Shown one piece after another: positions 34,080-36,893 of a stretch of DNA of 64,000 bases. The notes below the pieces were generated by a model. That model did no database searches, was not told the DNA's origin, and saw only the letters and a list, made by a program, of their open reading frames with translations. The first letter of the stretch is position 1, and every line of letters begins with the position of its first letter. The position numbers and the translations under genes are program-made. The stretch is from NCBI RefSeq assembly GCF_014205225.1, contig NZ_JACHNB010000001.1, positions 7,917,501-7,981,500 on the forward strand, given 5' to 3'. Source of the stretch: Actinoplanes octamycinicus (lineage in GTDB: Bacteria > Actinomycetota > Actinomycetes > Mycobacteriales > Micromonosporaceae).

Positions 34080-34496
34080 TCACCAGGCCGGGCCGCGAGC
34101 CAGACGCACCGGGCCGGTAGCGGTGGTCACGTCGACCTCGGCGCCCTTCTGCCGCACGACGACGGTGCCCTCCCCCGAGAGCTCGGCGGCCACCTCCCGG
34201 ACCACGTCCATCAGGTCCCGCCACGACTCCCCGCCGGCCACCCGGGCCGCTTCACTCGGGCAGATGCTGCTGTCCGCCGCCCGGTGCCGCAGCAGCACCC
34301 GGATCGCCGCGGCCACCCGCTCGCGCCGCCCCGCGGCCGTCGGCTCCCACCACGGGTCGCCCCGCTCCCCCAGCGCCACCTTGGCGTCCTGCACCCGCGG
34401 CCGGGCCGTGCCCGGGTCAGTGCGCACCAGCCGGCGGGCCGCCATCAGCTCGTCGACGAGCTCCTGCCGCAGCCCCCGTCCGGGATGTTCGGATCG
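34080..34496 (-). pseudogene. 3' part of a DUF3253 gene interrupted by an IS605-type element
   Basis: The reading resumes as DPNIPDG then LRQELVDELMAARRLVRTDP, ARPRVQDAKVALGERGDPWW and the winged-helix DUF3253 domain (SSICPSEAARVAGGESWRDL, VDVTTATGPVRLARG). The matching N-terminus lies beyond the IS element at 36269-36366. Joining 36269 to 34496 restores the codon ACC GAT. The joined frame is one base short of a multiple of three; the slip is at a run of five C (34473-34477), so a second lesion, or a sequencing error, is present. An ATG at 34445 could still express a shortened 121-aa protein with the whole DUF3253 domain. Confidence 0.8.
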
Positions 34497-34610
34497 TTGA
34501 CATCCTCGCCGTCCTAAAGGACGGCGATTCCAGCCACGCTGCGCGTGGCACGCGCGGCGTTCTGGCGGGTTACCGCTTCACTGCGCGGTGCCGGGACAAG
34601 TCCCGGTCTT
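34477..34610 (-). ncRNA. Predicted TnpB omega-RNA (reRNA) with guide
   Basis: The 3' end of tnpB and the right end carry three perfect hairpins: CCGGGAC/GTCCCGG (34591-34606), GCCACGC/GCGTGGC (34533-34549) and CGCCGTCC/GGACGGCG (34507-34526, holding the tnpB stop). The element ends with TCAA at 34500-34497. By analogy with known IS200/IS605 omega-RNAs, the guide is the following flank on the minus strand, CGATCCGAACATCCCGGACG (34496-34477). The 5' limit is a guess. Confidence 0.5.
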
Positions 34611-35752
34611 ACCTGCGCTCGACGGTCGTTGAAGTCCGCCTGCCCGGCGGCCTTGATGTTGATGGCGGCGTTGACGTCCCGGTCATAGTGACTGCCGCAC
34701 GCGCAGTCCCACGCCCGAACGTTCAGCGTCATCTTGTCGTTGATCCGGCCACAGTCGCAGCACATCCGGGTGGATGGGAAGAACCGGTCCACCCGGGCGA
34801 ATGTGCGCCCGTATCGGGCCGCTTTGTACTCCAGCATGGTGGTGAAGCTGGCCCAGCCCGCGTCGTGCACGCTCTTGGCGAGCCGGGTCCGGCCGAGACC
34901 GGTCACGCACAGGTCCTCGACGTACACCGCTTGGTTGTCGCGGATGATCGCCGTGGACAGTTTGTGCTGCCAGTCGCGCCGGGTGTCAGCCACCCGGGCG
35001 TGCGCCCTGGCGACCTTGATGACAGCCTTCTTGCGGCGGTTGCTGCCCTTGCGCTTACGCGAGAGGGCTTGCTGCAACCGTTTGAGTTTGCGGGCCGCAC
35101 GCCGCAGGAACTTCGGCGCGGTCACCTTCGTGCCGTCGGACATGACCGCGAAGTGGGTCAGCCCGAGGTCGATGCCGATCTCCGGCTCGACCGGCGGCAG
35201 CATCTCGTCCTCGCCGACGGTCACGACGAAGGAGGCGAAGTACCGGTTTGCCGCGTCTTTGATGATCGTGACGCTGGACGGGTCCGATGGCAGGGTCCGC
35301 GACCAGCGGACCGGTAGGTCGCCGATCTTCGGCAGCCGCAGGCGGCCGTTGTCCAGGACCTTGAACCTGCTGTTCTTGGTGAACCGGATCGCCTGCCGGT
35401 TGTCCTTGCGCGACCGGAACCGGGGCGGGGCGACCTTGCGGCCCTTGCGCTTTCCGGTGACCGAGGCGAAGAAGTTGCGGTACGCGGTGTTCAGGTCCGC
35501 GAGGGCTTGCTGCAACACCACCGCCGATACCTCGCCCAGCCACGCCCGGTCCTCGGTGGCCTTGGCCTGGGTGATGACCAGCTTCGACAGGTCGCCGTCG
35601 GAGAGGTACTTCTCGCCTGCCTCGCGGGCCTGTTGACGCAGCCTGAGTCCGTCGTTGAAAACCACGCGGGCACACCCGAACGCCTGCGCCAGCGCGGTGC
35701 GCTGGGCGGCGTCCGGGGTGACCCGGAAGTTGTAACGGAGCTGCACGACCAT
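34514..35752 (-). CDS. tnpB: TnpB, RNA-guided endonuclease of IS605-type element
   Basis: A 412-residue TnpB. The RuvC triad is intact: Asp195 (IGIDLGLTHFA), Glu279 (VYVEDLCV) and Asp359 (HYDRDVNAAINI); ISDra2 TnpB has D191, E278 and D361. The zinc finger uses CCDCG and CACG. N-terminal WED-like YNFRVTPDAAQRTALAQAFG and the QQALADLNTAYRNFFASV helix are typical. TnpB cuts target DNA next to the transposon-associated motif using omega-RNA. Its stop lies inside the right-end hairpin. ATG 35752 chosen; a GTG immediately before (35755) is possible. Confidence 0.93.
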   Translation of the reverse strand: MVVQLRYNFRVTPDAAQRTALAQAFGCARVVFNDGLRLRQQAREAGEKYLSDGDLSKLVITQAKATEDRAWLGEVSAVVLQQALADLNTAYRNFFASVTGKRKGRKVAPPRFRSRKDNRQAIRFTKNSRFKVLDNGRLRLPKIGDLPVRWSRTLPSDPSSVTIIKDAANRYFASFVVTVGEDEMLPPVEPEIGIDLGLTHFAVMSDGTKVTAPKFLRRAARKLKRLQQALSRKRKGSNRRKKAVIKVARAHARVADTRRDWQHKLSTAIIRDNQAVYVEDLCVTGLGRTRLAKSVHDAGWASFTTMLEYKAARYGRTFARVDRFFPSTRMCCDCGRINDKMTLNVRAWDCACGSHYDRDVNAAINIKAAGQADFNDRRAQVRPGLVPAPRSEAVTRQNAARATRSVAGIAVL

Positions 35753-35771
35753 CACTGTCCCATGCTGGCTT

Positions 35772-36206
35772 ATGGCCGAGCCTCAAGGTATCCGCACTGG
35801 CAGGCACTGTGTCTTTGCGATGCACGTTCACTTGGTTTTCGTGACGAAGTTCCGGCACAAGGTGTTCACCGACCAGCACCTGGTCCGGAGGCAGGCGATC
35901 ATGCGCGACATCTGCGCCGACTTCGAGGCAGAGCTGGTCGAGTTCAACGGCGAGAACAATCACGTGCACCTGCTGGTCAACTTCCCACCCAAGGTCGCTG
36001 TCGCTCGGCTGGTCAACTCGCTCAAGGGCGTCTCCTCCCGTCGCCTGCGCCAAGAGTTCCCCGACCTGGTACCCCACTACTACCAGGCCAACAAACTCTG
36101 CTCCGGCTCGTACTTCGCAGGCTCCGCCGGCGGCGCACCGCTGAACGTCATCAAGCAGTACATCGAGCAGCAGAACCGCCCCGGTCAAGGTACTGCTCGG
36201 GCCTAG
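35772..36206 (+). CDS. tnpA: TnpA, Y1 HUH transposase of IS200/IS605 family
   Basis: A 144-residue single-strand transposase. The HUH motif is NHVHLLV (His64, His66) and the nucleophile Tyr130 is in NVIKQYIEQQ. The core FAMHVHLVFVTKFRHKVF and SRRLRQEFPDL blocks are intact. It is divergent from tnpB with 19 bp between them, so transcripts of both must start in or near the gene ends. It reads toward the left end. The enzyme looks full-length, so the element may be mobile. Confidence 0.93.
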   Translation: MAEPQGIRTGRHCVFAMHVHLVFVTKFRHKVFTDQHLVRRQAIMRDICADFEAELVEFNGENNHVHLLVNFPPKVAVARLVNSLKGVSSRRLRQEFPDLVPHYYQANKLCSGSYFAGSAGGAPLNVIKQYIEQQNRPGQGTARA

Positions 36207-36233
36207 CGGCCCTCCCAGCGCGGGCCTTCACCC

Positions 36234-36249
36234 CCGGGCTGAAGCCCGG
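36234..36249. repeat. Left-end hairpin of the IS605-type element
   Basis: CCGGGCT (36234-36240) and AGCCCGG (36243-36249) form a perfect 7-bp stem 19 bp inside the left boundary, as required for TnpA recognition. Confidence 0.75.
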
Positions 36250-36268
36250 AGCACTGGCCCGCATTCCG

Positions 36269-36366
36269 GTAGCCCGCCACCGCCGGCCGGAAACGATCAG
36301 GTACCGCCCGTCCGCCGTCAGCGTGGCGTCATCCCGTGAGCCCATGGGCCTATGGTCCCCGTTCAT
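36269..36366 (-). pseudogene. 5' part of the interrupted DUF3253 gene
   Basis: ATG at 36366 overlaps the stop of the upstream SMI1 gene (ATGA). The 32 codons read MNGDHRPMGSRDDATLTADG then RYLIVSGRRWRAT, the expected N-terminus of DUF3253 proteins, and stop at the IS left end. The remainder is at 34080-34496. Translation into the IS would add about 20 foreign residues. Confidence 0.8.
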
Positions 36367-36893
36367 CCGCTCCAGGGAAACAACTCCTCGTCGCGCAGGA
36401 GCAGCACCTCCGGGTCCTCGGCGCTGACATGCCCGGCCCGGAACGGCCACCGCCGCTCGCCGAGCTCGCCCTCCAGCAGAAACCTGAGGAAGCGCAGGAA
36501 GCTGCTCGCCACGAGGTAGGTCAACCCTTCGCCGGCCATCGTGTCGACGAAGTAAACGGCGTCCCGGTCGATGTGCTCGCGCGACAGGTCCAGCACGTAG
36601 TAGTTGCCACACCCGTCACCCGCGACCGGGAGCCAGCCCCGGCCGGCCCAGTCGGGGTGGAAGCCGAGGACGTCGAGCGCGTCGCGCACGCCGAAGATCC
36701 CGCCCGGCCCGGCATACGAGCCGTCGCAGACGCGCAACCAGCGGACGTACTCCTCGGGAAGCTGCCGGTCGTATCTCGCCGCGATCGCCGCCACCCGGGA
36801 GTCGTCAGCGCCGGTGAGGTCGCGGAGTTCCGGAGGGAGCGGGATCTGCCGCACCAGCCGCAGCAGGCCGGCGACGTCCGGCCCGGAGGTCAC
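36363..36893 (-). CDS. SMI1/KNR4-family protein
   Basis: A 176-residue SMI1/KNR4 domain protein: the N-terminal helix SRVAAIAARYDRQLPEEYVR, then WLRVCDGSYAGPGGIFGV, WLPVAGDGCGNYYVLDLS and YFVDTMAGEGLTYLVASS. It is the middle gene of a three-gene unit: its GTG start overlaps the MerR-Prx stop (GTGA) and its stop overlaps the DUF3253 start (ATGA). SMI1 proteins are often immunity or adaptor proteins; in this operon an adaptor or regulatory role is as likely. Confidence 0.85.
   Translation of the reverse strand: MTSGPDVAGLLRLVRQIPLPPELRDLTGADDSRVAAIAARYDRQLPEEYVRWLRVCDGSYAGPGGIFGVRDALDVLGFHPDWAGRGWLPVAGDGCGNYYVLDLSREHIDRDAVYFVDTMAGEGLTYLVASSFLRFLRFLLEGELGERRWPFRAGHVSAEDPEVLLLRDEELFPWSG

Follow-up and report, generated by a model that had tools for sequence, protein, structure and literature searches.

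Indels clustered about 20 nucleotides beyond the right end of an IS200/IS605-family element in Actinoplanes octamycinicus and its relatives

The element and the gene it interrupts

Within the window (the whole stretch of 64,000 nucleotides of Actinoplanes octamycinicus DNA analysed here), a minus-strand DUF3253 gene is split by an element of 1772 bp (34497..36268, minus strand) that, judged by its sequence, is an ordinary member of the known IS200/IS605 family. Read on the minus strand from its left end (LE) at 36268 to its right end (RE) at 34497, it comprises LE, tnpA on the plus strand, a divergent tnpB on the minus strand, and RE. The tnpA gene (35772..36206, plus) encodes a Y1 transposase of 144 amino acids, which matches Pfam Y1_Tnp (PF01797) at 128.7 bits and has ISHp608 TnpA as its nearest solved relative; as originally predicted, its reading frame is intact and it retains the HxH motif and catalytic tyrosine of Y1 HUH transposases (His64, His66 and Tyr130). 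The tnpB gene (34514..35755, minus) encodes 413 amino acids from a GTG start, the one given by the ORF tool, or 412 from the ATG one codon later, from which residues are numbered here. TnpB contains the Pfam domains OrfB_IS605, Cas12f1-like_TNB and HTH_OrfB_IS605 together with zinc-finger cysteine motifs and, again as predicted, the RuvC-like residues Asp195, Glu279 and Asp359, and it aligns to solved TnpB; its nearest solved structures are an AI-designed nuclease (9yyg) followed by the natural TnpB chains 8h1j and 8bf8.

LE (36221..36268, minus) contains an imperfect hairpin, judged by eye, and is conserved in the alignment of relatives; an LE profile matches 80 of 112 loci. The RE tip (34497..34530, minus), also conserved across relatives, consists of GAAT (which may serve as a TnpA guide, as in IS608), a hairpin that is present in the covariation fold described below, and the terminal sequence GATGTCAA. 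Both ends thus carry subterminal hairpins and no inverted repeats.

Five copies of the element are present in this genome (one contig of 10.28 Mb): the window copy and four others at 94–97% DNA identity, with 53 bp missing from one of these four. All five share the same terminal sequence and are preceded by GCTAC, and together with the empty sites found for each of them they support the predicted ends and length. TnpB is open in all five copies, which were found by DNA, and TnpA is apparently usable in two. Other genomes of the genus also hold the element, and a TnpB search over named genomes returned 234 relatives, of which the best 80, mainly from Actinoplanes and Micromonospora, were retained; a trend among relatives towards intact tnpB with lost tnpA was set aside and is not pressed here, because the relatives had been retrieved with a TnpB query. 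The copies of this genome span 6.918–7.954 Mb (window copy at 7.952 Mb), about 1.04 Mb of the 10.28-Mb chromosome, a clustering that by simple arithmetic has a probability of about 5 in 10,000 under uniform scatter on a circle. Their orientation is mixed (three plus, two minus), and all lie on one side of a putative dif-like site at 6.768 Mb (a single hit, with one mismatch); a replication-linked orientation was considered and dropped on these grounds. The dnaA gene is at 1.765 Mb, and twenty 20-kb samples of GC skew were too noisy to place the terminus.

The target motif, GCTAC (36269..36273, minus), lies directly 5' of LE. Of the 61 copies that differ in right flank and whose two ends could be placed, 56 have GCTAC, two have ACTAC, and GCCAC, GCTAT and CCTAC occur once each, so that the motif CTAC proposed earlier included the right bases but was one base short. 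The C that follows GCTAC is assigned to the element because it is lacking from the empty sites of L002, L004 and L006, the three other copies of this genome that are informative on the point.

Empty sites were obtained by searching the joined flanks of the five copies against 67 same-genus genomes. The fetched relatives align across every junction without target duplication (14 at DUF3253, 16 at L002, four at L003, 12 at L004 and three at L006). From our own reading of the translated joined flanks, we take L002 to lie in a cyclase-like, L004 in a cupin-like and L006 in a VOC-like gene. The interrupted DUF3253 gene consists of an N-terminal part (36269..36345, minus), recognised from the translated joined flanks and homologous empty sites, and a C-terminal part (34080..34496, minus), recognised from Pfam PF11625 and empty sites; all 14 relatives continue across CTAC|CGATCC, in agreement with the original prediction. 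Their four bases at the junction are CTAC in three, CCAC in nine and CCGC in two, a mixture that establishes continuity of the gene but not that each sequence is a target. Directly upstream of the interrupted gene lies a gene of the SUKH-1 (SMI1/KNR4) family (36363-36893, minus; Pfam).

Joining CTAC to CGATCC had been expected to restore the reading frame, and does so for about seven codons (RRWRAT|DPNIPDG), but the frame is then broken by two extra bases (34477..34478, minus; placement uncertain by a few bases) near +18..+20, positions being counted outward from the RE junction. The remainder of DUF3253 is in another frame because these two bases are lacking in all 14 relatives, which are 2 nt shorter than the window at about +18..+24; a uniform caller places the difference at +18 in 13 of the 14. 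At L004, an extra base at +20/21 is absent from all 12 relatives. In seven relatives inspected for each of the two copies, no further indel occurs up to 120 nt from the junction.

The right-end RNA and its predicted guide

A predicted omega-RNA scaffold region (34497..34671, minus) overlaps the 3' coding end of tnpB. Across 74 aligned sequences covering these 175 nt at the end of RE, standard pairs fill 2581 of the 2658 cells where pairing is predicted, a score biased in favour of the fold in that the fold was predicted from the same alignment; at one pair, 33 sequences have GC and 33 have CG. This covariation supports the RE fold, and the hairpins near the tnpB 3' end may, as suggested earlier, belong to an omega-RNA. 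By analogy with ISDra2, whose guide measures about 16 nt according to the accessible text of its description (PMC8612924), the predicted guide would occupy the RE flank, of which 20 nt are at 34477..34496 (minus). The idea of an RE-derived guide is in keeping with the family searches, the five copies, the empty sites and the conserved fold. The far end of the 20-nt guide first proposed overlaps the two-base difference between the window and its relatives.

Events in the flanks of related copies

We compared copies of the element with empty-site relatives from Actinoplanes, Micromonospora and further Micromonosporaceae, leaving aside the copies of Lentzea, Actinomadura and other genera outside that family. 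The uniform caller was given 58 copies and 259 relative stretches. Right-informative copies, defined by some relative aligned from +12 or nearer to +45 or beyond, numbered 43 (15 were dropped), and the mirrored rule gave 28 left-informative copies; an event was counted if shown by at least 60% of the informative relatives of a copy. Two copies without an indel fell outside the limits of the caller, L104 at 69% identity and L091 with an alignment starting at +14; both would otherwise have counted as unscarred. L128 was left uncounted because its left flank is missing; in its RE flank a different repeat element, present elsewhere in the same genome, starts 21 nt past the RE end.

Events touching +15..+21 occur in 10 of the 43 right-informative copies. 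Small changes are found in L001, the window copy (2 nt gained at +18), L004 (1 nt gained at +20 to +21), L040 (9 nt lost at +21), L041 (1 nt lost at +16 to +18), L062 (6 nt gained at +19 to +21) and L047 (1 nt lost at +17); large deletions begin at +21 in L056 (947 nt), +18 in L115 (207 nt) and +17 in L085 (593 nt); and L113 has both 1 nt gained at +20 to +21 and a 358-nt deletion from +24. Just outside the interval, L054 has gained 2 nt at +24. Other right-side events lie at +29 (L020), +34 (L064), +27 (L050), +80 (L040), +60 (L041), +71 (L047), and +22 and +28 (L085), with two of opposite sign at +24 and +38 in L092 and four in L052, each of these last two copies having one relative. No consistent event was found at +1..+14 among the 43 copies. 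About a quarter of the informative copies, the window copy among them, thus show either an indel at +16..+24 or a 207–947-nt deletion with an edge there, and the two-base frame break in the window is one case of a recurrent flank pattern. Deletions that start at the junction, in L012 (about 1.1 kb), L119 (about 0.2 kb) and L096 (about 1.0 kb), were set apart as a class separate from the events near +20. L085 and L096, from two species of Micromonospora, have their insertion site in common (the same left flank is seen in L347) and for that reason are not independent insertions; their right-flank deletions differ, starting at about +17/+18 in L085 and at the junction in L096.

Under a null of uniform placement, which takes no account of varying constraint along the flank, the 10 of 43 was reached in 0 of 20,000 trials; the interval +15..+21 had been noticed before these first tests. 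The best 7-nt interval, +18..+24, holds 11 copies (L054 and L092 enter, L047 leaves; 0 of 3000 placements), and the left-flank control gave 3 of 28 (P 0.18). Among copies with two or more relatives, the counts are 8 of 35 on the right and 1 of 23 on the left. The events of L041 and L085 come from one relative each and those of L062 and L050 lie within repeats; a strict set, with two or more relatives and without L041, L062, L047 and L050, still gives 6 of 32 (P 5e-5; any-window P 3e-4). For the last set the criterion, +15..+22, was fixed in advance: 10 of 18 named copies were informative and one of these (L047) fell inside, or 2 of 11 with the later-added L113, while L054 missed the interval by 2 nt, a result that points in the right direction and is weak by itself. 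Sequencing error in G runs could mimic changes of the size seen in the window copy and L004, but not the large deletions. Scars showed no association with the state of tnpA, which was called intact in one of the 11 scarred copies and in three of the 32 others (Fisher P 1), the call being crude because a stop near the C-terminus was scored as broken (L002, for example, looks usable).

Origin of the flank events and closest known systems

The best explanation of the whole, and in our judgment a fairly probable one, is that TnpB cuts near the RE flank and that the cuts are healed into end-joining scars. TnpA, to go by its family, would excise the element and insert it as single-stranded DNA 3' of GCTAC; TnpB, presumably with an RE-derived RNA, would cut DNA matching the RE flank 15–21 nt from the motif; and the indels and deletion edges at +16..+24 would be the scars of end joining after breaks that TnpB may have made. 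ISDra2 TnpB cuts 20–21 bp from the motif on the target strand and 15 bp from it on the opposite strand, leaving 5' overhangs (PMC8612924, accessible text). On the RE side, the scar edges seen here lie within or just beyond that interval. In L062 the six extra bases are identical to +16..+21, a duplication such as the filling of an overhang would leave, though it is situated in a GGC repeat. Ku is present in the host genome.

A serious rival, if a rather unlikely one, holds that cutting by TnpB is confined to the empty sister site, where GCTAC is present, and that the scars stem from imprecise repair off the element-bearing sister, a 'peel, paste and copy' process whose right-hand join is faulty. 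It agrees with the known motif dependence and with the published model (PMC8612924, accessible text), and small right-end insertions follow from it readily, but deletions of 207–947 nt (L115, L113, L085 and L056) should have been refilled from the intact sister template, and the scarred copies L054, L056 and L062 have no recognisable tnpA within about 3 kb upstream to create an empty site in cis, unless TnpA was lost later. Because the four large deletions are hard to explain with an intact sister as template, cutting of the element-bearing locus is favoured. Most speculatively, the element-bearing copy itself would be cut, perhaps at a stage when the flank is single-stranded, and TnpB would shield the element-side end so that deletions extend away from the element. 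The accessible text reports that ISDra2 TnpB cuts matching single strands without a motif (PMC8612924); against such cutting, GTCAA rather than GCTAC precedes the guide at the element-bearing locus, which motif dependence of the ISDra2 kind should therefore protect. We put forward tentatively, at slightly less than even confidence, that in nature TnpB makes repeated cuts in the chromosome next to the transposon that encodes it, some 20 nt beyond the right end. End joining would heal these breaks, so that frameshifts and deletions build up in the host gene but spare the element and roughly the first 16 nt of flank.

It is improbable that the indels reflect ordinary decay of interrupted genes, or changes in the relatives, with their position due to chance: interrupted genes are free to decay, further indels are indeed seen, both from +27 to +80 and on the left side, and the last set, with 1 of 10 informative copies in +15..+22, was a weak test, but this reading leaves the clustering against uniform placement, the empty +1..+14 and the lack of a matching cluster on the left unaccounted for. 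Least probable is that a lesion came first or concurrently. On this view the element inserts where forks are damaged or stalled and DNA is single-stranded, and the lesion there also leaves an indel close by. IS608 and ISDra2 do use the template of the lagging strand as their target, via single-stranded intermediates (PMC6006769, accessible text), but a lesion would not explain why the events keep to one distance of about 20 nt and to the RE side.

If the scars are indeed TnpB cuts, the position and frequency of TnpB cutting in its own host could be read at no cost from sequenced flanks of IS605-type elements, TnpB would be shown capable of harming the locus in which it resides, and it would become clear how elements expected to excise cleanly leave permanent deletions in nearby genes. 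Self-cutting, if true, would further make transposon flanks a natural record of RNA-guided cleavage, giving cut position and motif without experiment. Comparison of scars would then make the natural activity of TnpB and its choice of substrate testable. No published report of such scars was found in the literature searched, which left most subscription papers outside and is hence no proof of novelty.

Among the closest known systems is ISDra2 of Deinococcus radiodurans (IS200/IS605), whose TnpB (8h1j, 8bf8) is homologous to that of the window over almost its full length. The two share a motif 5' of LE and an RE-derived guide (here predicted), and the cut interval of ISDra2 matches the scar edges seen here; they differ in the motif itself (TTGAT in ISDra2, GCTAC here), and flank scars are not described in the accessible text on ISDra2 (PMC8612924). 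A further difference from ISDra2 is that the tnpB stop codon of the window element is 17 nt in from the end of RE. Two Rfam families align partially to RE, HgcC over 34484-34620 (minus) through the RE hairpin (E 0.0012; 27.3 bits against a curated cut-off of 50) and sot0042 over the same hairpin (E 0.19; 16.9 bits against 88), both far under the cut-offs and so not members by that criterion; the sub-threshold match of the first suggests that HgcC, an archaeal RNA family, could itself be an omega-RNA. ISHp608/IS608 of Helicobacter pylori supplies the closest solved relative of the window TnpA, and the RE end TCAA and the preceding GAAT resemble those of IS608. The target motif of IS608 is TTAC, as against GCTAC here, and unlike IS608 the window element has GC-rich, actinobacterial ends.
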